A DNA stretch of 10,126 nucleotides, from contig CAMJYF010000034.1 in NCBI GenBank assembly GCA_946409885.1, forward strand, positions 1-10,126, given 5' to 3'. Below the pieces are notes generated by a model. The model worked only from the letters and a program-made list of their open reading frames with translations, was not told the DNA's origin and made no database searches. How positions within the stretch are numbered: position 1 is the stretch's first letter; each line of letters opens with the position of its first letter. The position numbers and the translations under genes are program-made. Below, one piece after another: positions 1 through 9,380 of this stretch. The DNA is from an uncultured Clostridia bacterium (GTDB lineage Bacteria > Bacillota > Clostridia > Oscillospirales > Acutalibacteraceae).

Positions 1-263
1 ACCGGATGGGGTAGGTTTTCGCACAGCCGGGAACAAATCGACAAATCCCTCTTTGTTGAAGTGGGAAAATTGAGGAAGTCATCAGTCGGATGTCGGTTAT
101 CCCGTTCTGATGAACAATCCGGCGGAACGAATGGCGTTGCGGGAGAACAATTGAAAGCACAGTCGGAAAGACAGCAGACCTTCACGGCGAGATACGGAGT
201 TTGCCCATAGGGGACTTCTGACTTCCGATTGACGACTTCCGACGATACAAAAGGGGGAGAAAA
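1..263. other. Left-edge region without a recognisable gene
   Basis: I recognise no gene here. Plus-strand frame 1 is open from the window edge to a TAG at 208-210, about 69 codons. Its translation is rich in Ser, Gln, Arg and Gly, resembles no family I know, and is less GC-rich than the real genes nearby. It could be the tail of an upstream gene or chance. Positions 213-243 hold a short repeat: GACTTCCGA occurs at 220-228 and 234-242, with a related GACTTC at 213-218. The last bases carry the ribosome binding site AAGGGGGAG (251-259) of the next gene. I see no convincing sigma-70 promoter or riboswitch. Confidence 0.4.
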
Positions 264-1067
264 ATGACAGGAAACGGAGATTTCAAAACCGGCGGTTTTA
301 TGTACGCCGTCGCCATCGCCATCATTTTAGTGGTGGTGGCGGAATCGGTCTTCTTTATGGTAAAATCCTGGCGGCACGGCAAAAAGCTGGGCATCTCCAA
401 GGAGACCATGAAGAACACCATTTTTTCCAGCGCGCTGTTCAGCGTGGCCCCGGCCATCTCCATTCTGACGACGGTCATCGTGCTGGCGGGGGCGCTGGGC
501 ATCGTGCTGCCCTGGATCCGCCTCAGCGTCATCGGCAACCTGGCCTATGAGACCACGGCCACCAAGCTGACGCTGGAATCGCTGGATTCCCGCCTGTCCC
601 TGTCCACGGATATCACCGACCCCAAGACCTTCGGCGCGGTGGCGTGGGTCATGACCATCGGCACCAGCTTCGCGCTGGTTCTGCTGCCCATCGTCTGCAA
701 GACCATCCAGAACAAGGTGGGCGGCGCGCTGCAGAAAAACGAAAAGACCTCGCGGCTGGGGGATATCATCTCCGCCGCCGCGTTCATCGGCATCATCGCC
801 GCCTTTGTGGCCAACGCCATCAACGGCCGGCAGACGAAGGAGGCGCTCACCATCGGCGACGCGGGCTTTATGTCCGTCTGCACGCTGGTGACCGCTATCG
901 TGCTGAGCCTGATTTTAGAAACGGTCTGCGAAAAACGCGGTCTGCATAAGCTGGAGCCCTTCGCCATGCCCATCAGCATGTTCGGCGCCATGGGGGTGGC
1001 CGTCGTGCTGAATCTGGTGCTGCCCGAAGCGGTGACCTCGTTTACCTGGTGGGGGAATGTGGCATGA
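264..1067 (+). CDS. DUF5058-type multi-pass membrane protein
   Basis: This is a 267-residue integral membrane protein resembling the DUF5058 family as I remember it; its function is not established. Hydrophobic segments lie near residues 12-33, 55-82, 125-147, 168-187, 202-220 and 236-255. A short basic loop after the first helix (KSWRHGKKLGISKETMK, about 36-52) and the PAISILTTVIVLAGALGI segment are the features I associate with the family. The start is chosen because AAGGGGGAG lies four bases upstream of the ATG; the next in-frame ATG (300) has no comparable site. The stop TGA overlaps the ATG of the next gene, so the two proteins are probably made in fixed ratio and may form a complex in the membrane. 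A transport role is a guess; no ATPase or soluble enzyme is encoded beside it in this window. Confidence 0.72.
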   Translation: MTGNGDFKTGGFMYAVAIAIILVVVAESVFFMVKSWRHGKKLGISKETMKNTIFSSALFSVAPAISILTTVIVLAGALGIVLPWIRLSVIGNLAYETTATKLTLESLDSRLSLSTDITDPKTFGAVAWVMTIGTSFALVLLPIVCKTIQNKVGGALQKNEKTSRLGDIISAAAFIGIIAAFVANAINGRQTKEALTIGDAGFMSVCTLVTAIVLSLILETVCEKRGLHKLEPFAMPISMFGAMGVAVVLNLVLPEAVTSFTWWGNVA

Positions 1068-1732
1068 AAAAGACAAAAGAAAGAACCTATTTTGACAGCG
1101 TCCATCTGTGGGGGCGGCTGTGGAGCGTCGGCGCGCTGATCGCGCTGCTGATGGTGCCCACCGCCATCTGCGCCCACTTTCACGCCTGGCCGAAGTTCAC
1201 GGAGATCATGGGCCCCATCGGCAAGGTGATGCTGCTGAACTGGACCGTGGCCGTGGTGGAGGTGATCGCCTACACGCCCATGCTTGGCGCGGGCGGCACC
1301 TACCTCAGCTTCGTCACCGGCAACATCGTCAACCTCAAGCTGCCCTGCGGCCTTAACGCCATGTCCAAGGCCAACGTGAAGGCCAACACGGAGGAGGGCG
1401 AGGTCATCTCCACCCTTGCCATCGGTTCCTCCGCCATCACCACCACGCTGGTCATCGCCGCCGGGGTGCTGCTGCTGGGCCCGGCCGTCAGCGTGATCAA
1501 AAGCAACCCCGTGGCGGCGCCCGCTTTCGGTTACGTGCTGCCCGCCCTGTTCGGCGCGCTGGGCGCGGGGTATTTCCGCAAGAACGTGGCGGTGTCCCTG
1601 ATCACCATCGCGGCGGGCGTCATCGTGCTGCTGTTTGCGCCCACCATCGGCGTGGGCACGCTGATTTTCGTCACCATCGTGGTGGCCATCGGCAGCGCCC
1701 TGGGGATGTTCAAGCTGGGCTGGATCAAATAA
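1064..1732 (+). CDS. Membrane protein, partner of the DUF5058-type protein
   Basis: A 222-residue membrane protein with no function I can name. I count about five hydrophobic segments: residues 20-38, 50-72, 122-145, 152-175 and 178-215. Between the second and third is a polar stretch (NIVNLKLPCGLNAM..ANVKANTEEGEVIST, about 89-121) with a conserved-looking Pro-Cys and an acidic TEEGE motif, a plausible functional loop. The ATG at 1064 is preferred over the GTG at 1049 because it overlaps the upstream TGA as ATGA and has GGGGG (1051-1055) at a suitable distance; the GTG would place the start inside the upstream gene without a better site. Tight overlap and shared membrane character suggest a two-subunit system. 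The family and substrate remain unknown. Confidence 0.68.
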   Translation: MKKTKERTYFDSVHLWGRLWSVGALIALLMVPTAICAHFHAWPKFTEIMGPIGKVMLLNWTVAVVEVIAYTPMLGAGGTYLSFVTGNIVNLKLPCGLNAMSKANVKANTEEGEVISTLAIGSSAITTTLVIAAGVLLLGPAVSVIKSNPVAAPAFGYVLPALFGALGAGYFRKNVAVSLITIAAGVIVLLFAPTIGVGTLIFVTIVVAIGSALGMFKLGWIK

Positions 1733-1742
1733 CTGCCGTAGC

Positions 1743-1760
1743 ACGCAGCCTCAGCTGCGT
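1743..1760 (+). other. Small perfect hairpin after the membrane-protein pair
   Basis: ACGCAGC (1743-1749) and GCTGCGT (1754-1760) form a perfect 7-bp stem around the loop CTCA, eleven bases after the stop codon of the second membrane protein. There is no T-run after it, so it is a weak candidate terminator. It may instead stabilise the 3' end of the transcript. Confidence 0.4.
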
Positions 1761-1782
1761 TAATGGCATAAAAGTTACATAT

Positions 1783-1788
1783 GAGGTG
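1783..1788 (+). promoter_or_regulatory. Ribosome binding site fixing the dockerin-protein start
   Basis: GAGGTG lies six bases before the ATG at 1795. The upstream in-frame GTG (1786) is inside this site, so translation most likely begins at the ATG. Confidence 0.65.
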
Positions 1789-1794
1789 AACAAG

Positions 1795-3222
1795 ATGAGA
1801 CAAAAGAAAGGAACGCGGCTGTTAAGCCTGCTGCTGGCCGTGGCGCTGCTGGCGCCGGGGCTGGTGCTGTCAGCCTCCGCCGAGCCCGCGCTGATCGTGG
1901 ACGCGGAGCGGGCGGAAATGCTGGAGATGTTCAACCGGTCGGCCAACGGCGTCAAGACCCTGCGGCCCGCCATGAAGATGGAAAGCCACATTGCCATGAC
2001 GGACGCCACCACCGGCTCCAAGGGCGACGGCGAGAGCCTTGACGACAACGGCAAAAAATACCTGGCCTGGATCCTCGACGCCTGCTTCACGTCGGATTCC
2101 GGCCTCGCGCAGACGCTGTTCAACACCATTCAGGACGTGCCGCGCCTGCCGAAAAACGTCTCCTTCGTCTATGGGGAAAAGCGCGATAACCGCGTGCCCC
2201 TGCTGGGGGAAAAGTATGTTTCCCTGCTGACCCCCAACGACGATTTTGCCATGAAGACGGAACGCTACGGCGGAACGCTGCTGCAGCCGGAAAACGAAAC
2301 GACCGTCATGCGGCTGGAGTTTCCCTCCGTCTCACTGGAGGAGGGGCCCGACAGCTCCCTGTCCCACCTGTTTGATCTGCCCTCCCCGGTGCTGAACCCC
2401 ATCGTGGTCAGCGGCGATCCCAACGCCTCCGACAAGGACGGCAGACTGTCGGAGATACATTTTCAGGATTTCATGTTTGAAAACGCCTATGCCGAGGCGC
2501 AGTTCGATCACAACGGCAACATGACGGAGCTGACCGAGAGCATCGAATACACCTTCCAGATCTCCTTTTACGACATGCTCCGCATCATCACCGCCTATAC
2601 GGGGGTGGACTGGATGGCCATCGCCGTGGCCGGTATCGCCAACCCGATCCTCAGCGGCCTTGACAAGCCGGAGCTGCAGCCCAAGGACGCCCTGGATTTT
2701 TATACCATCTACGTCACCTACACCTCCTACGTCCATATGACGGATTTCAACTGGACCAGGCGCGTCTACGGCGACGTGAATAACGACCAGCGGGTGGATC
2801 CCTACGACGCCCGCGCCATCCTGCGCCATTCCATCGGCAGCGAGATCCTGCCGGACGCCGCCGCGCTGGCCTACGCCGACATGGATTTCGACGGCGAGAT
2901 CACCCCCGCGGACGCCCGCCTGGCGCTGCGGACCTCCGTTGGGCTGGAGGAGCAGTTCTTCCTGCCGCCGAACGGCAGCCAGACCGGCTTTATCATCCCC
3001 GACGCCGTAGATGAGCCCGCCGCGCCCACGGATCCGCTGGATCCCTCCGTCAGCGGCGATCCGGAGCAGTCGGAGGAGCCCTCCAAACCGGACGTGACCT
3101 CCGAGCTGGCCGGTTTCACCGGTTCCGTGATGGATATCATCAAGAACCTGAAGGAGGGTGAGGGCCTCAGCGTGGAGGCCATCCGCAGCATCGTGGAGGA
3201 GTTCCGCAAGATCGGCAAATAA
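1795..3222 (+). CDS. Secreted protein with type I dockerin domain
   Basis: A 475-residue exported protein. A basic start (MRQKKGTR) is followed by a hydrophobic core (LLSLLLAVALLAPGLVL) and a signal peptidase I site near SASA/EPA, residues 25-30. Residues about 30-320 form a domain I do not recognise, rich in Asp, Glu and aromatic residues. Residues about 326-390 form a dockerin with two calcium-loop repeats, DVNNDQRVDPYD (from 327) and DMDFDGEITPAD (from 362), each followed by a helix (ARAILRHS, ARLALRTS). Dockerins usually bind cohesins on scaffoldins or the cell surface; no cohesin is encoded here. Unusually the dockerin is not terminal: a Pro/Asp/Glu/Ser-rich linker (about 400-430) and a helical tail (about 433-475) follow. 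It sits 54 bases before greA with no clear terminator between. Dockerin assignment is secure; the N-terminal function is unknown. Confidence 0.85.
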   Translation: MRQKKGTRLLSLLLAVALLAPGLVLSASAEPALIVDAERAEMLEMFNRSANGVKTLRPAMKMESHIAMTDATTGSKGDGESLDDNGKKYLAWILDACFTSDSGLAQTLFNTIQDVPRLPKNVSFVYGEKRDNRVPLLGEKYVSLLTPNDDFAMKTERYGGTLLQPENETTVMRLEFPSVSLEEGPDSSLSHLFDLPSPVLNPIVVSGDPNASDKDGRLSEIHFQDFMFENAYAEAQFDHNGNMTELTESIEYTFQISFYDMLRIITAYTGVDWMAIAVAGIANPILSGLDKPELQPKDALDFYTIYVTYTSYVHMTDFNWTRRVYGDVNNDQRVDPYDARAILRHSIGSEILPDAAALAYADMDFDGEITPADARLALRTSVGLEEQFFLPPNGSQTGFIIPDAVDEPAAPTDPLDPSVSGDPEQSEEPSKPDVTSELAGFTGSVMDIIKNLKEGEGLSVEAIRSIVEEFRKIGK

Positions 3223-3276
3223 ATCAGGTACCCAAAACAATCAAATACAGCATATTGCAAGAAGGGAAATGACATC

Positions 3277-3753
3277 ATGGCAGACGAATACGTATTACCT
3301 TTAAACGTGATCGAGCAGCTCAAGGAGGAGCTCCGTGAGCTGCGCACCACCGGCAGAAACGACATCGCGGAAAAGATCAAAGAGGCCAAGTCCTTCGGCG
3401 ACCTTTCCGAAAACAGCGAATACGACGAGGCCAAGTCCGACCAGGCCAAGCTGGAAGCGCGCATTCTGGAAATCGAATACACGCTGAGCCACGCCACCGT
3501 GCTGGACGAAAGCACCCTTTCCACCGAAAAGGTCTACACGGGCCTTTCGGTGCGCATCTACGACGAGACCTACGATGAGGAGCACGTCTATCATCTGGTG
3601 GGCGCGCCCCAGGCGGACCCCATGCACGACAAGGTGTCGGACGAATCCCCTGTGGGCCGGGAGCTGCTGGGCCACCGCGTAGGCGACGTGGTCACCGTGG
3701 AGACCCCCATGGGCAACGACGTGATCAAAATTCTGGAAATCTTTAAAGCGTAA
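3277..3753 (+). CDS. greA: Transcription elongation factor GreA
   Basis: GreA rescues backtracked RNA polymerase by entering its secondary channel and stimulating cleavage of the extruded RNA 3' end. The 158-residue length is typical. Residues 1-75 are the antiparallel coiled coil; its tip GDLSENSEY (41-49) carries Asp42 and Glu45, equivalent to the acidic residues that coordinate the catalytic magnesium. Residues about 80-158 are the FKBP-like globular domain, with the expected SPVGRELLGHRVGDVVTVETP stretch (in two parts, about 125-145). The ATG is preceded by AAGGG ten bases upstream. The lysyl-tRNA synthetase gene begins 18 bases after the stop, so the two are almost certainly co-transcribed. 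Nothing in the protein is odd. Confidence 0.96.
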   Translation: MADEYVLPLNVIEQLKEELRELRTTGRNDIAEKIKEAKSFGDLSENSEYDEAKSDQAKLEARILEIEYTLSHATVLDESTLSTEKVYTGLSVRIYDETYDEEHVYHLVGAPQADPMHDKVSDESPVGRELLGHRVGDVVTVETPMGNDVIKILEIFKA

Positions 3754-3760
3754 ACCGGCG

Positions 3761-3765
3761 GGAGG
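3761..3765 (+). promoter_or_regulatory. Ribosome binding site of lysK
   Basis: GGAGG lies six bases before the ATG at 3772 in the 18-base gap after greA. It fixes the start immediately upstream of the nucleotide-binding domain. Confidence 0.75.
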
Positions 3766-3771
3766 TCATCT

Positions 3772-5331
3772 ATGCATTGGTCTGAAGAAATCGCCGAGCG
3801 GATCATCAAGCGGAATCCGGATAAGCCGGAATACGTCTGCGCCGCCGGCATCAGCCCCTCCGGCTCCATCCACATCGGCAACTTCCGGGATATCGCCACC
3901 AGCTACTTCGTGGTGAAGGCCCTGCGCAAAAAGGGCAAAAAGGCCCGCCTGCTGTTCAGCTGGGACGAGTTCGACCGGGTGAGGAAGATCCCCGTCAACG
4001 TGGCCAAGGCGGACGGGGACATGGAAAAATACATCGGCTTCCCCTACGTGGACGTGAAGAACCCCTTCGGCACGGAGGAGGCCACCTACGCCGAGTATTT
4101 TGAAAACGAGTTCATGCGGTCCATCACAAAATTCGGCATCGAGATGGATTACCGCTATCAGGCACGGATGTACCGGGAGGGCAAATACACCGATTACATT
4201 CTGGAAGCCCTGCAAAAGCGCGGCGAGATCTTTGATATTCTCGATTCCCACCGCACCCAGGACGCCAAAGAGGGCGAGCGGGAGGCCTATTACCCCGTCA
4301 GCATCTACTGCCCCGTCTGCCATAAGGACACCACAAAGATCCTGTCTTTGACGGACGACTGCCATGTGGCGGAGTATGCGTGCGCCTGCGGCCATCACGG
4401 TACCTTCGATTTTACCAAAGATTTCAACTGCAAGCTGGCCTGGAAGATCGACTGGCCCATGCGCTGGAAATATGAGGGCGTGGATTTTGAGCCCGGCGGC
4501 AAGGATCACGCCAGCCCCCACGGCAGCTACGATACCAGCAAGGATATCTCCCGCAAGATCTTCGGCTTCGAGCCGCCCATCTTCCAGGGGTATGAGTTCA
4601 TCGGCATCAAGGGCACCACGGGCAAAATGTCCGGCTCCTCCGGCCTGAACCTGACGCCGGAAACCCTGCTGAAGATCTACGAGCCGGAGGTCATCCTGTG
4701 GCTCTACTCCAAGACGGAGCCGCTGAAGGCCTTTGATTTCTGCTTTGACGACGGCATCCTGCGCCAGTACTTTGAGTTCGATAAAATGTACGACGCGGTG
4801 AAAAACGGTACGGCCAGCGAGGCCCATCAGGCCATCATGTACAACACAACGGTGGCGGGCCATGAGGTCTGCACCGTGCCCATGAGCCTGATCGTGCAGC
4901 TGGGCTCCATCGTCAACTTCAACGTGCCCATGCTGGAGACCGTCTTCTCCAAAATCGGCACCCCCTACACCTACGGCCAGTTCGCCGGCCGTCTGGAGCG
5001 GGCCAAGTTCTGGCTGGAGACCTGCTCCCCCGAGAGCGTCAACAAGCTGCGTCCCTTCCGTAATTGGGACGTGTATGAGGCGCTGGATGAGGAGACGAAG
5101 AAGGAAGTCGCCCTGCTGCACGACTACATCGTCAAGGGCGGCTACACGCTGGACGAGCTGAACACCCAGCTCTACGATATCCCCAAGCAGGTGTTCGGCT
5201 ATGATCTGGAAGAAAAGGCGCTGAAAGCCCGCCAGGGCGCGTTCTTCAAATCCGTCTATCAGCTGCTCATCGACCGGGAAAAGGGCCCGCGCCTCTACCT
5301 CTTCCTCTTCGCCATCGAGCCGGAAAAGTAA
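3772..5331 (+). CDS. lysK: Class I lysyl-tRNA synthetase
   Basis: It attaches lysine to tRNA-Lys using ATP. This is the class I (Rossmann-fold) enzyme of archaea and some bacteria, not the class II LysS usual in Firmicutes. In 519 residues: HIGN (34-37) is the HIGH motif; KMSGS (285-289) is the KMSKS motif, within GTTGKMSGSSG; CPVC (180-183) and CACGHHG (204-210) look like a zinc ribbon inserted in the catalytic domain; ISPSGSIHIGN and FSWDEFDRVRKIP are class I LysRS hallmarks. Residues about 330-519 should form the helical anticodon-binding region. A GGAGG fixes the start. The gene ends with TAA after FAIEPEK, but the same frame stays open for another 151 codons and encodes a linker and a tRNA-binding domain, so this may be the N-terminal part of a stop-interrupted fusion of about 671 residues. 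Confidence 0.94.
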   Translation: MHWSEEIAERIIKRNPDKPEYVCAAGISPSGSIHIGNFRDIATSYFVVKALRKKGKKARLLFSWDEFDRVRKIPVNVAKADGDMEKYIGFPYVDVKNPFGTEEATYAEYFENEFMRSITKFGIEMDYRYQARMYREGKYTDYILEALQKRGEIFDILDSHRTQDAKEGEREAYYPVSIYCPVCHKDTTKILSLTDDCHVAEYACACGHHGTFDFTKDFNCKLAWKIDWPMRWKYEGVDFEPGGKDHASPHGSYDTSKDISRKIFGFEPPIFQGYEFIGIKGTTGKMSGSSGLNLTPETLLKIYEPEVILWLYSKTEPLKAFDFCFDDGILRQYFEFDKMYDAVKNGTASEAHQAIMYNTTVAGHEVCTVPMSLIVQLGSIVNFNVPMLETVFSKIGTPYTYGQFAGRLERAKFWLETCSPESVNKLRPFRNWDVYEALDEETKKEVALLHDYIVKGGYTLDELNTQLYDIPKQVFGYDLEEKALKARQGAFFKSVYQLLIDREKGPRLYLFLFAIEPEK

Positions 5332-5368
5332 GCCTTCCTGCTGGATTTCTCCACCCCCAAAACGGAGG

Positions 5369-5374
5369 AGGAGG
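5369..5374 (+). promoter_or_regulatory. Internal ribosome binding site before the tRNA-binding domain
   Basis: AGGAGG lies five bases before the GTG at 5380, an almost ideal arrangement. It is the end of a longer purine run, GGAGGAGGAGG (5364-5374), which in the synthetase frame would read as a Glu-rich linker, so it may be either a true initiation site or a by-product of linker codons. If real, it gives the tRNA-binding domain its own translation despite the upstream TAA. Confidence 0.5.
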
Positions 5375-5379
5375 CCTTT

Positions 5380-5787
5380 GTGCCGGAGGAGAAACCGGAA
5401 GAGCCGGCAAAGCCCCAAAAGGTCTACGGCGATCCCGACCCGGTGCAGCCCGTGCTGGAACAGAGAGTCTCCATCGACGACTTCAAAAAGACCGACCTGC
5501 GCGTGTGTAAGATCCTCAAGGCGCAGGAGATCCGCAAGTCCGCCAACTGCCTGAAGCTGACCCTCAGCGACGGCCTCGGCGAGCGGGTGATTGTCTCCAG
5601 CATCAAGCACGACTATGAGTGCGAGGAGCTGGTGGGCAAAAAGATCATTGTGGTCGCCAATCTGGAGCCCGCCCGTATCACCGGCGTGGAGAGCAACGGC
5701 ATGCTGTTGGCCGCCACCAACAACGCCTGCGGCTGTCAGGTGATCTTCGTGGACGATATCGTGCCCGAGGGAACCAGAATCATGTAA
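5380..5787 (+). CDS. EMAP-II/Trbp111-type tRNA-binding domain protein
   Basis: A 135-residue protein whose residues about 28-135 match the OB-fold tRNA-binding domain of Trbp111, CsaA and the C-terminus of bacterial MetRS. Visible family motifs are IDDFKKTDLRVCKI, LKLTLSDG, VIVSSI, ELVGKKIIVVANLEPARI and GVESNGMLLAA. The domain binds the outer corner of tRNA without codon specificity and raises the local affinity of synthetases. Residues 1-25 are a Pro/Glu/Lys-rich linker. It is in the same frame as lysK: from the TAA at 5329-5331 the 48 bases to this GTG are open and encode AFLLDFSTPKTEEEAF. The GTG start rests on the AGGAGG five bases upstream. It is either an independent subunit acting with LysRS or the detached tail of a fused synthetase. 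A strong terminator follows at once. Confidence 0.75.
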   Translation: MPEEKPEEPAKPQKVYGDPDPVQPVLEQRVSIDDFKKTDLRVCKILKAQEIRKSANCLKLTLSDGLGERVIVSSIKHDYECEELVGKKIIVVANLEPARITGVESNGMLLAATNNACGCQVIFVDDIVPEGTRIM

Positions 5788-5791
5788 CACA

Positions 5792-5831
5792 AACGCGGTC
5801 CTCCCCCGGCTGACCGCGTTTTTCCCTTTTT
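5792..5831 (+). terminator. Intrinsic terminator of the greA-lysK operon
   Basis: AACGCGGTC (5792-5800) pairs perfectly with GACCGCGTT (5812-5820) across an 11-base loop, followed by a T-rich stretch to 5831. It begins four bases after the stop codon of the tRNA-binding domain. Confidence 0.9.
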
Positions 5832-5839
5832 CGTCGCTC

Positions 5840-5861
5840 TGCAGCACGGCGCCGTGCTGCA
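5840..5861. repeat. 22-base perfect palindrome
   Basis: Ten-base arms GCAGCACGGC (5841-5850) and GCCGTGCTGC (5851-5860), extended by T/A on the outside, make a perfect palindrome with no loop. It lies between the operon terminator and the inhibitor gene. There is no T-run on either side, so it is not a standard terminator. It could be a dimeric-protein binding site for the next gene or an unrelated fold-back sequence. Confidence 0.6.
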
Positions 5862-5887
5862 ACGTGTCGCAAAATTCCTGTTTATCC

Positions 5888-5903
5888 CGCTGTTTCCACA
5901 GCG
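5888..5903 (+). repeat. Small inverted repeat upstream of the inhibitor gene
   Basis: CGCTGT (5888-5893) and ACAGCG (5898-5903) pair around TTCC. It lies 27 bases before the ATG at 5931 and could be a leader hairpin or operator half-sites. No function is shown by sequence alone. Confidence 0.4.
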
Positions 5904-5930
5904 AAATTATCCAGAAAGGAAGTCACCACT

Positions 5931-6350
5931 ATGCACGCTGTTTTTGCGAAGATCATTTCCTTTATCATGGCGATCCTGGCGTTCCTGGGCCTTGTCAAGC
6001 CGCAGACGCCTGCCGCGGATCCCGAACCCTTCACGGTCAACGGCAAGGTCGTCACCTTCTGCTTCGATTCCAACCCCTCCACCGGCTATGGCTGGCAGGC
6101 CGTCGTTGACGGCGACTGCGTCACGCTGACGCGGGACGCATACGAAGGGATCCCAACGGAGCCCGCTGTAGCCGGCGCCGGCGGTTATCAGTATTACGAT
6201 TTCACCGCCGTCAAACCCGGCACGGCGAAGGTCACCTTCACCTACGCCCGCCCGTGGGAGGCCACCGAAGCGGACCGCGTCGTCGTGGCGGAAATCACCG
6301 TGGCGGAGGACCTTTCCATTGCCTCCGTCGCCATGCCCAACGAAGGATAA
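5931..6350 (+). CDS. Chagasin-like (MEROPS I42) cysteine peptidase inhibitor
   Basis: A 139-residue protein of the chagasin family, small immunoglobulin-like inhibitors that plug the active site of papain-type (C1) peptidases with three loops. All three are recognisable: NPSTGYGW (48-55, the NPTTG loop), AGAGGYQYYDF (81-91, the GxGG loop) and ARPWE (106-110, the RPW loop). The N-terminus is a hydrophobic segment (residues 7-22) with no charged start beyond Lys7, followed by a Pro/Ala-rich spacer, so the inhibitor is either exported through a signal peptide or held on the membrane facing outward. AAAGGAAG lies upstream at a usable distance. It appears to be a single-gene unit between two terminators. 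The likely role is protection from external or self-made C1 peptidases; no such peptidase is in the window. Confidence 0.87.
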   Translation: MHAVFAKIISFIMAILAFLGLVKPQTPAADPEPFTVNGKVVTFCFDSNPSTGYGWQAVVDGDCVTLTRDAYEGIPTEPAVAGAGGYQYYDFTAVKPGTAKVTFTYARPWEATEADRVVVAEITVAEDLSIASVAMPNEG

Positions 6351-6424: not shown

Positions 6425-6519
6425 CTGTAGGGGCGGGCACTGACCGCCCGAAAAATCCCCTCAAAATGAAACGTGATGGAAGGGTAACGGTTGCGGGCGG
6501 TCAGTGCCCGCCCCTACAG
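6425..6519. repeat. Inverted-repeat element with 26-base perfect arms
   Basis: The left arm (6425-6450, beginning CTGTAGGGGCGGGCACTGAC) is the exact reverse complement of the right arm (6494-6519), separated by a 43-base AT-richer core. Each arm is itself a small hairpin: GGGCGG and CCGCCC around GCACTGA. The nested symmetry and the gene-free position between convergent genes suggest a REP/BIME- or MITE-like dispersed element. No transposase or clear target duplication is visible, and copy number cannot be judged from one window. Confidence 0.75.
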
Positions 6520-6567
6520 GGGAGGCGCAAATCTCAATTGGCAGACCGCGATCACATGCCCCGCCGT

Positions 6568-8349
6568 TCAATTCCCGCCGTAAACCCAGTTCAGCCTGCC
6601 GTAGGGGGCGCTTTCGCCGCGGGTGTAGAAGGACATAATATTTCCGTCCTCATAGTTGTCCGCCCACTTGAAGGTGAAGGCGGCCTTTTGGTTTCCGGCC
6701 AGGCCCAGCATGGCTTTTTCCACCCGCAGCATCAGCCGGTTGCCCTCATAGCGGATGGCGGCGTCGCCCAGCTTTTCATAGCCCGCATCGGTAACGGCCT
6801 CCACGGCGGTTTTGCCGTTTGCGGGGGCGGTGCGGTTCACGCAGAAGTCGTAGCCCGCTTTCTCGCCCTTCACGTTGAGGAACAGCGTCATCCACGCTTC
6901 GTCCGTGGCGGGGGAGAGGGGAGAAGCGGTTTCCACGTAGTAATACAGGTACCGGCTGTCCTCCGCCACCTTGGCCCTGACGATGTCGTTCCGGCCGGTG
7001 TCGTCGGCGTAGTACAGGTCGCCGTAGCCCCGGCTGTCCCGGCGGAAGGTGTCGCCCCGGTAATCCCGGTAGACGGCCCTGACGGAGGGGTTGTCCCACT
7101 GGGCAAAGCTGCCGTTGACGTCGATGCTCACATAGGTGTTTTCCGGCAGCGTCGCCGTGCTGCGCTTGAACCGGGCGATGTAGTTCACCAGCTGCATATA
7201 GTAGTTGTCCCCCAGCGCCCCGGCGGCGGGTTCGATATCGCGGGAGTATTCCTCGGTGCAGTTGTCGCAGAAGCCCACCGGCTCGCTGTCCACAAACTGA
7301 TAACGCTGGGCGATCCACTCGTTGAAGCCGGTGACGAAGATGATATCCGGATCCAGCTTCAGGGCGTATTCCCACTGCTCCGTGAAGTTATAGCCGCGCA
7401 GCATGGCGTCCTCGGCGGTATCCTTCGCCCCGTTGTGCCAGCTTCTGCCGTGGTCGCTGCCGCCGTACCAGGCGGAGGAGCTGAACCGGACCGTATCGCA
7501 GTGCTGCGCCACGGACACGTTCATAATGCTTTTGTCCATGGGGGAGTTCTTGTAATAGGCGTCGAATTGGCCCAGCCGGCCGAATTCCATCCAGGGGAAG
7601 CCGTCGTCGTTCTTGTCGCTGTTGGGCCACTGCGTGGTCTTGATGCGGAAATAGTCGCGCGCGTCCGCCCGCAGCTCCGTGTCGTCCTTCCAGCCCACGA
7701 TCATGGGTTTGCCGTTCCAGCGGTACCACAGCTCGTCCAGGCGGGGGTATTGCGCCTTCAGCGCCGCGTTGTTGTAAAGCCCGTCGTAGATGGCGTTGAT
7801 GGTTCGCCCGGAGGCGGAATTGGTGTAAAACGCCAGCTGCGGCACCTTCCACCCGTCCTCCAGATAGCCGTACCACACGTCGATCAGGTCCTTTGCCCTT
7901 TCGATATAGGGCACGGCGTTGGTGGTATCGAACACGATAAAATCCACCCCCGCGTCCGTCAGCATCTGGCAGTGACGGGACAGGACCCACTTGTCGCTTT
8001 GCAGGTAGTAGCCGAACAGCGGCTCGCCCCAATGGTGGAAGGCCGCGTAGCCGCCGCCCCCGGCCGCCTCCCACCGCTCGGCGGTGAGATAGGCCTGCGG
8101 GTCTTTTTCCGTGATTTTCGTGATATCGTAGGGGCCGTCGGTGCCGTGCTCGCCCGCCCACAGAAAGTAGAAGACGCCCACCTGTTTTTCGCTCTCCCCG
8201 GCGGATATCACCTGTCTCCCCAGGGCGTCCACAGCCGCCAGCGAGCCGTTTTCCGTTACCGTTGTTTGCCGCAGGGGCGCCGACGCCCCAAAGCAGATGT
8301 TCCAGATCATTGTAAAAATCAATCCTACCTTTACCAACAATTGATACAT
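6568..8349 (-). CDS. Secreted GH71/GH99-like TIM-barrel protein with CBM9-like domain
   Basis: A 593-residue exported protein, probably acting on a polysaccharide outside the cell. Residues 1-24 form a signal peptide (VGLIFTMIWNICFGASA). Residues about 55-400 resemble the GH71/GH99/WbsX-like barrels: GVFYFLWAGEHGTDGPYDI (58-76) at the first strand, FDTTNA (140-145), and IFVTGFNEW, whose Glu344 is in the position of the conserved Asn-Glu-Trp motif of these families. Residues about 405-593 begin YVSIDVNGSFAQWDNP and continue with YLYYYVETASP and WMTLFLNV, the usual look of CBM9/DOMON-like modules. GGAGG (minus strand, 8357-8361) lies seven bases before the ATG at 8349 and excludes the longer reading that starts farther upstream. 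Catalysis is not proven and the substrate is unknown. Confidence 0.75.
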   Translation of the reverse strand: MYQLLVKVGLIFTMIWNICFGASAPLRQTTVTENGSLAAVDALGRQVISAGESEKQVGVFYFLWAGEHGTDGPYDITKITEKDPQAYLTAERWEAAGGGGYAAFHHWGEPLFGYYLQSDKWVLSRHCQMLTDAGVDFIVFDTTNAVPYIERAKDLIDVWYGYLEDGWKVPQLAFYTNSASGRTINAIYDGLYNNAALKAQYPRLDELWYRWNGKPMIVGWKDDTELRADARDYFRIKTTQWPNSDKNDDGFPWMEFGRLGQFDAYYKNSPMDKSIMNVSVAQHCDTVRFSSSAWYGGSDHGRSWHNGAKDTAEDAMLRGYNFTEQWEYALKLDPDIIFVTGFNEWIAQRYQFVDSEPVGFCDNCTEEYSRDIEPAAGALGDNYYMQLVNYIARFKRSTATLPENTYVSIDVNGSFAQWDNPSVRAVYRDYRGDTFRRDSRGYGDLYYADDTGRNDIVRAKVAEDSRYLYYYVETASPLSPATDEAWMTLFLNVKGEKAGYDFCVNRTAPANGKTAVEAVTDAGYEKLGDAAIRYEGNRLMLRVEKAMLGLAGNQKAAFTFKWADNYEDGNIMSFYTRGESAPYGRLNWVYGGN

Positions 8350-8356
8350 GACGTCG

Positions 8357-8361
8357 CCTCC
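8357..8361 (-). promoter_or_regulatory. Ribosome binding site of the glycosidase-like gene
   Basis: On the minus strand GGAGG sits seven bases upstream of the ATG at 8349. It decides the start, giving a protein that begins directly with its signal peptide instead of 29 extra residues. Confidence 0.75.
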
Positions 8362-8409
8362 GTTTTGATGACAAAAAAACAGGCGTGGGGCAAAGGCGCG
8401 ACGCGTGAA

Positions 8410-8441
8410 AAGCGATCCGCTGTAACGGAAAACCATCGCTT
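8410..8441 (-). terminator. Possible weak terminator or leader hairpin
   Basis: AAGCGAT and ATCGCTT (8410-8416 and 8435-8441) form a 7-bp stem, extended inside by CCG/CGG on one side of an asymmetric loop; the minus-strand exit is only TTTT. It lies between the 300-residue gene and the glycosidase-like gene. It could attenuate read-through. Confidence 0.35.
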
Positions 8442-8471
8442 CTCACACCTCAGGCCTTACACCTCACACCT
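8442..8471. repeat. Short direct repeats after the 300-residue gene
   Basis: CTCACACCT occurs at 8442-8450 and 8463-8471, and the offset motif ACACCTCA at 8445-8452 and 8459-8466. This is simple-sequence-like intergenic DNA that ends six bases before the stop codon of the minus-strand gene. Confidence 0.5.
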
Positions 8472-8477
8472 GAAGGA

Positions 8478-9380
8478 TTACTGCTGAATGCCGCCGCCGG
8501 GCTGTCCGCCGCCCATCAGGGATTGCAGCAGGCCGGGGCGCTTTTGCTTTTTCGGCTTGTATTTCGGCGGGTTCTGCAGCCGCAGCCGGGCGGAGCTGCT
8601 CTTGGCCAGCCGCTCGTTGGCCGCCAGCACCGGCTCCAGCATGGTGTCGGTCAGATAGGGCATGATCTGCTGGATGATGTGGGGATCGTTGTTGATCTCG
8701 CCCAGGATCGTCACCGCGATCAGGCTCTGCACCTCGTTGGTGCCGTCCTCGTACACCTCGCCCAGAATATTGAACAGCTTTTTCATCTGCTGGGGATTGT
8801 TGGAGCGGATCACGTCCATGATGAACCGGTTGGCGTGGTTCACAAAGAAATCCTCACACAGAAACTCGCCGTAGGTGTTGATATTGTTCTTGATCTCGTC
8901 CTTTAAGGAGGGAAACATCCCGGCCAGCTTGGTGGCCAGGGTGACGGGGTCGTAGGCCATGGCGCCGCTGCGGGCCGCCGCCTTGGAGACGGTGGCGGGG
9001 GCCTTCATCTTCACGTTCTCCTTTTTCTTGACCAGATAGGTATCCGTCATGTATTCGGAGATCTCGTTGACCAGGCTCTTCAGATCCTTTTCGCCGTATT
9101 CCTCCAGCACGAAAAGATAGGTGGTATCCAGCTGGAAGGCGGAATCATCTGTCAGGTCGATCTCGTTCGCCCCGAACAGCAGGTGTACCCGGTCCTTGTT
9201 GAACACGAACCGCGCCCGGCCCTTTTCGCTTTTGAAATCGATCACGGACTGGCTTTCCCGCTCATAGACCGGGGACGCCCCCCTGGGCGCGTCCGCTTTC
9301 CGCTCGGCGGTAAAACCGCAACTCGTCATGGCGGGTTCGATCCCCGCGTAGAGCGCTTCCATCATTTGTTGCTGTGTCAT
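8478..9380 (-). CDS. Unrecognised 300-residue cytoplasmic protein
   Basis: I cannot name the family. There is no signal peptide or membrane segment. Residues 1-120 look like an alpha/beta domain (YERESQSVIDFKSEKG, ARFVFNKDRVHLLF), ending in a helix about 97-115. Residues about 120-145 are a Lys/Ala-rich linker. Residues about 145-260 are mainly helical and could be a repeat-type scaffold (NTYGEFLCEDFFVNHANRF, MKKLFNILGEVYEDG, SLIAVTILGEI). The last 30 residues are basic then Gly/Gln-rich (PPKYKPKKQKRPG, GGGQPGGGIQQ), typical of a flexible tail. AAAAGGAG lies upstream of the ATG, supporting the start. The gene is flanked by a repeat array on the 5' side. It may be transcribed with the glycosidase-like gene, 128 bases downstream, but nothing links their functions. 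Confidence 0.75.
   Translation of the reverse strand: MTQQQMMEALYAGIEPAMTSCGFTAERKADAPRGASPVYERESQSVIDFKSEKGRARFVFNKDRVHLLFGANEIDLTDDSAFQLDTTYLFVLEEYGEKDLKSLVNEISEYMTDTYLVKKKENVKMKAPATVSKAAARSGAMAYDPVTLATKLAGMFPSLKDEIKNNINTYGEFLCEDFFVNHANRFIMDVIRSNNPQQMKKLFNILGEVYEDGTNEVQSLIAVTILGEINNDPHIIQQIMPYLTDTMLEPVLAANERLAKSSSARLRLQNPPKYKPKKQKRPGLLQSLMGGGQPGGGIQQ

Follow-up and report, generated by a model that had tools for sequence, protein, structure and literature searches.

The class I lysyl-tRNA synthetase (LysRS-I) gene of this uncultured Clostridia bacterium descends from a fused gene, in which the synthetase continued into a Trbp111-like tRNA-binding domain, and it differs from the fused genes of its closest relatives by a single stop codon, TAA, near the end of the synthetase part. 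We consider it highly probable that the ancestral fusion was interrupted in this one genome by a single-base change of TAC or TAT to TAA, and that this TAA is either an incorrect assembly base or a nonsense allele of very recent origin, and not the mark of an established two-subunit state.

In the window, by which we mean the whole stretch of 10,126 nt that was analysed, greA, the LysRS-I ORF and the same-frame open continuation follow each other on the plus strand (Table 1), and the greA-LysRS gene order is also present in three sister stretches. The LysRS ORF matched TIGR00467 with 349.9 bits over residues 1-515 (cut-off 147.55) and PF01921 with 360.1 bits (cut-off 27), and the motifs HIGN and KMSGS were found in its sequence. 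Past the stop the frame remains open for 151 sense codons and ends with TAA at 5785-5787. An earlier reading of the sequence alone had described these codons as a Glu/Pro-rich linker with a complete Trbp111-like domain, and this was confirmed by a PF01588 match of 70.5 bits (cut-off 27) that covers profile positions 1-95 of 96, the whole domain; its coordinates for the first TAA (5329-5331) were exact, and the AGGAGG that it placed five bases before a GTG lies at 5369-5374, ahead of GTG 5380. A fold search retrieved PDB 1irx and Trbp111 and added nothing beyond the sequence. No T-box or other RNA element was matched at gathering score in an Rfam scan of the window, and scans of 3200-6000 for promoters and terminators yielded nothing above chance level. 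The greA-LysRS genes are flanked by those for a dockerin-bearing protein (1786-3222) and a chagasin-type (I42) protease inhibitor (5931-6350), and the region 264-1732 encodes a DUF5058 protein and then a protein of 227 aa that matched nothing in Pfam or NCBIfam.

Table 1. Features of the greA-LysRS region, in window coordinates
Feature	Position	Strand	Basis or remark
greA, transcription elongation factor	3277..3753	+	directly 5' of the LysRS ORF; NCBIfam NF001263, 169.7 bits, cut-off 145
Class I LysRS ORF, 519 aa, early stop	3772..5331	+	ATG at 3772; TIGR00467, PF01921
Lone nonsense codon TAA, codon 520	5329..5331	+	Tyr (69) or Phe (11) codon in 80 fused loci
Codons A-F-L-L-D-F-S, remainder of the synthetase core past the stop	5332..5352	+	LLDFS in 80/80 fused loci
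Glu/Pro-rich linker and beginning of the OB-fold region	5353..5496	+	sequence
GGAGGAGGAGG-CCTTT-GTG, strong Shine-Dalgarno-like site with internal in-frame GTG	5364..5382	+	anti-SD duplex -11.8 kcal/mol
Possible free tail ORF from GTG, 135 aa	5380..5787	+	ORF list
Trbp111/EMAPII-like tRNA-binding OB domain	5497..5775	+	PF01588; PDB 1pyb, 8vtz

A protein search of 59 genomes, including the one studied here, found LysRS-I in this genome and in ten others, and in all ten of these relatives the gene is a single ORF of 662-676 codons. The three closest sisters, whose cores are 96% (G018), 93% (G003) and 96% (G020) identical to the window LysRS, carry TAC, TAC and TAT, respectively, at the site of the TAA. 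G018 and G020 match the window collinearly over nearly the whole of the sequence compared, and G003 does so from 252 to 6313, in blocks 74-92% identical in DNA. In a wider scan, contigs of named genomes were searched with an alignment of fused genes (A1) as the query; at least 536 relatives were confirmed and the best 80 retained, a set that overlaps the first ten and in which choosing the best favours fused genes. Each of these best 80 of at least 536 loci consists of one fused ORF, 662-693 aa long, and the codon at the TAA site is TAT in 47, TAC in 22, TTC in 9 and TTT in 2. According to the record titles, they belong to Oscillospiraceae/Ruminococcaceae, Lachnospiraceae, Eisenbergiella, Christensenellaceae and others. 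The split seen in the window occurs in none of the relatives examined (0/10, and 0/80 for the best 80 of at least 536, the two sets overlapping). The sequence-only reading had asked whether relatives have one ORF of about 670 codons, and they do in both sets; its proposal of a fused ancestor with a one-base change from TAC or TAT is supported by the sister codons, and relatives with two separate genes, which would have spoken against it, did not appear among those of the fused type.

Taken alone, an open same-frame continuation is weak evidence. A mechanical ORF list for 21 stretches of the same genome (223 ORFs, antisense shadows among them) contained 15 same-frame pairs split by one stop, and 34 of the 211 ORF stops were followed by at least 100 open codons. 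Seven of the 15 pairs were written out and five of them (10 ORFs) scanned against Pfam; one pair matched two different families, and the other four, with at least one side lacking a match, were undecisive. The continuation is not mere chance because in the relatives a single protein comprises both parts as well as the linker. Two long antisense frames were noted in the window as well, one of 698 codons on the minus strand (3766-5862), antisense to the entire LysRS gene, and one of 673 codons on the plus strand (6466-8487), antisense to a 622-aa gene at 6568-8436. Both are likely to be shadows of the GC-rich coding strand, which confuse mechanical gene calling.

The fusion is widespread in Clostridia. 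In an order sample of 295 genomes, 12 of the 13 other full-length PF01921 genes are fused and the remaining one is truncated by a contig end; one genome with two short LysRS-I pieces in separate frames (G096) was left out of this full-length count. In a class sample of 391 genomes, again including the one studied here, nine others matched at E <= 1e-40, six of them fused and three unfused. No tail domain was seen in the 70 codons 3' of the stop in these three unfused, more distant genes. Unfused LysRS-I therefore also exists in Clostridia.

The stop was placed between the two domains by the sequence-only reading, which suggested a neat conversion of a fusion into two subunits by one base, or a gene making both a full-length and a separate tail protein. 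This placement is not supported. The LLDFS motif, kept in all of the best 80 of at least 536 loci, begins three residues past the TAA position. A further fused gene of the class sample (L161) has LLDFD in its place, and among the unfused Clostridia enzymes one (L164) ends with LLDF and the other two (L162, L163) have a different C-terminal end. In an AlphaFold2 model of a fused sister, residues 517-524 are helical, with block pLDDT values of 71 and 88, in a model of low overall confidence (mean pLDDT 60.4, pTM 0.34). Residues 1-516 of the window LysRS align with residues 2-511 of PDB 1irx, a class I LysRS of Pyrococcus horikoshii with 523 residues and no OB tail; the alignment reaches 516 only, so the last helix is undecided by 1irx. 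Most likely the TAA cuts the last predicted helix of the synthetase and not the linker. The 519-aa ORF ends a few residues before the point that corresponds to the end of L164, and it lacks the complete C-terminal core helix of the Clostridia type with its LLDF end.

The codons past the stop have not drifted. In comparison with the three sisters, the tail of the window shows no indel, no second stop and no decay; codons unique to the window lineage number 2 non-synonymous and 7 synonymous in the 151 codons after the stop, and 5 and 44 in the core. The corresponding tail figures of the sisters themselves are 2 and 10, 3 and 12, and 1 and 5. This leaves three readings: a stop of recent date, a tail that has kept its function, or a stop that is not real. 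Tail residues 30-134 align with 1pyb and 29-134 with 8vtz, over the whole domain. The Trbp111-tRNA structure of 2024 (PMC11286949) has the OB fold capturing the 3' CA of the tRNA and names six contact residues. With the numbering transferred through the 8vtz alignment, two of the six are identical in the tail, the equivalents of S82 and M85, which are kept in 80/80 fused loci; the other four are changed across the fused family, E32, K33, R75 and F78 of Trbp111 being A, N, A and T in the tail.

The appending of a Trbp/EMAPII OB domain to a synthetase is not new in itself. Bacterial MetRS with a C-terminal Trbp domain has the same order of synthetase and tail, and the genome studied here carries one (contig C68), but the synthetase is a different one and the C68 and LysRS tails are clearly diverged. 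An EMAPII-like C-terminal domain is also found on the LysRS of Entamoeba, a eukaryotic enzyme (PDB 4up7-4upa; PMC3226552, as far as its consulted part goes). The class I query gave no match to 4up7-4upa. This fits with the Entamoeba enzyme being of class II. In the consulted part of AARS Online (PMC11580382) the EMAP-type OB fold is assigned to eight synthetase groups, including MetRS, TyrRS, PheRS beta and LysRS-II, and LysRS-I is absent; an account of the tRNA-binding domain PS50886 (PMC2997003) spreads it over class 1 and class 2 synthetases, with LysRS-I unnamed in the portion consulted. A literature search found no paper with both PF01921 and PF01588. The titles and abstract openings searched held no description of a LysRS-I with a Trbp tail; subscription papers lay outside this search, which is not proof of novelty.

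Among 25 other members of the genus, eight have LysRS-I, five of these being rated at least 90% complete, and none of the eight has a class II LysRS over the cut-off, so that serious damage to LysRS-I should be lethal. In the members without LysRS-I, 16 have a class II LysRS over the cut-off and one a partial match. One genome (G032; one contig, 99% complete) gave neither a LysRS-I match nor a LysRS-II match over the cut-off. The genome studied here is a draft of 428 contigs rated 69% complete, so a second LysRS could be absent from the assembly. An N-terminal piece of a class II LysRS does lie at the end of one of its contigs (C355), of which positions 1-3025 (L049) encode DapA, a dapB-like ORF, a greA-like ORF and the start of the class II enzyme. 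No DapA of the 25 other genus members is more than 51% identical to the one on this contig. For the LysRS piece, the matches listed from 200 genomes of the family, this one included, reach 63% identity at most, and the single genus member that matched reaches 49%; the contig DNA compared with seven relatives gave nothing longer than 242 bases among the matches listed. Composition does not set the contig apart from the bin; it looks foreign because DapA, LysRS and DNA all diverge from the relatives, and its class II fragment was rejected on this gene divergence as a second LysRS of the host. Thus, LysRS-I is probably the sole, essential LysRS of this genome, and a damaging stop in it is therefore harder to accept as real.

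These observations could be explained by a wrong consensus base in the assembly, with an ordinary fused gene in the organism itself. We put the chance of this at a little under even; it is contained within the preferred explanation, and the two are not to be added together. The stop is known from one fragmented and incomplete draft and hits a LysRS gene that is probably the organism's only one; apart from it the frame is unbroken, the tail looks selected, and the changed position is Tyr or Phe in 80/80 relatives. A small sister comparison is mildly against an error-rich assembly. Taking 41 stretches each from this genome (G000) and from G018, only 32 and 25 orthologous matches were obtained, 6 and 3 of them with a stop in the opposite genome, antisense shadows accounting for several; the 6 of 32 were judged to be three antisense shadows and three stops near an alignment end, which left no other clear mid-gene stop in numbers too few for a rate. 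This control is weak: with the antisense frame chosen by the gene caller, even the LysRS stop went undetected. On balance we lean slightly to a wrong base, and rate the likelihood of an assembly error as similar to that of a recent real mutation or a little above it.

In the preferred explanation, of an ancestral fusion interrupted in one genome, the ancestral gene would have encoded a class I LysRS joined by a Glu/Pro linker of about 50 residues to a Trbp111-type OB domain at the C-terminus. By holding the 3' end of the tRNA, the tail would most likely help the synthetase to retain or locate its substrate. A single base change of TAC or TAT to TAA at codon 520 would then have interrupted the fusion in this draft genome. 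If the base is real, most ribosomes would stop at 5329-5331 and release a LysRS without part of its last helix and without the tail, and some free tail may arise by initiation or re-initiation at GTG 5380.

The evidence that bears against this explanation includes the strength of that internal site, which makes a working split possible. The anti-SD duplex at GTG 5380 is the strongest of the 40 in-frame start-like codons of the gene, about equal to that at the gene's own start (-11.0 kcal/mol), and its energy is reached by only 0.1% of 921 sampled NTG codons. One nonsense change could then have left LysRS and a free Trbp111-like protein as separate subunits translated from one transcript, and the intact tail and the existence elsewhere of both free Trbp111 and unfused LysRS-I are consistent with this. 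A functional split is thus possible but not favoured, and we regard it as unlikely, since the stop lies in the last core helix before LLDFS and no relative in either set has the split. Furthermore, a downstream ORF with its own predicted ribosome binding site is present, but the fused sister L004 has the identical GGAGGAGGAGG-N5-GTG site, also at -11.8 kcal/mol. In the two other closest sisters the duplexes are -6.2 and -9.5 kcal/mol; the site is therefore neither tied to the stop nor held constant, contrary to the link between linker start and split drawn in the sequence-only reading. In the predicted fold the first GGAGG of the run pairs with bases reaching through the first two of the start codon, and AGGAGG lies in the loop of this hairpin (80-nt fold around GTG 5380, -26 kcal/mol). 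A variant in which the change is real and a gene fission is in progress appears quite improbable to us; here a run of Glu codons, by accident a ribosome binding site in the fused ancestors, would have let one nonsense change yield a synthetase and a free Trbp111-like protein with neither lost.

It is very improbable, in our view, that internal initiation routinely yields a separate tail in the fused family and that this genome has lost only the long form. Linker starts speak for it: in the best 80 of at least 536 fused genes, in-frame starts with at least 5 SD matches were found in 22/80 linkers and with at least 6 in 7/80, compared with 71/560 and 13/560 in core windows of similar length (65 codons); a control with shorter windows (45 codons; 84/880 and 17/880) overstated the contrast. 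Against this, strong in-frame linker starts vary in position and strength across the fused genes, the closest sisters included, and a Glu-rich linker should give such sites by its codon content, so that Glu codons likely account for them. Finally, read-through of UAA 5329 to give a full-length fusion from the interrupted gene would suit the conserved codons beyond it but is the remotest of the possibilities considered, and was judged less likely in the sequence-only reading too, since TAA is an ordinary terminator that ends 78/211 ORFs in the sampled stretches and 59/81 LysRS-I genes (the best 80 of at least 536 plus the window), including this very frame at 5785-5787.

The fusion itself is the more general result: it is common in LysRS-I of Clostridia and occurs in members of the genus in which no class II LysRS exceeds the cut-off. 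If the stop is real, this gene would offer a natural experiment on the ability of the tail to work in trans and on the need of the synthetase for its last core helix.
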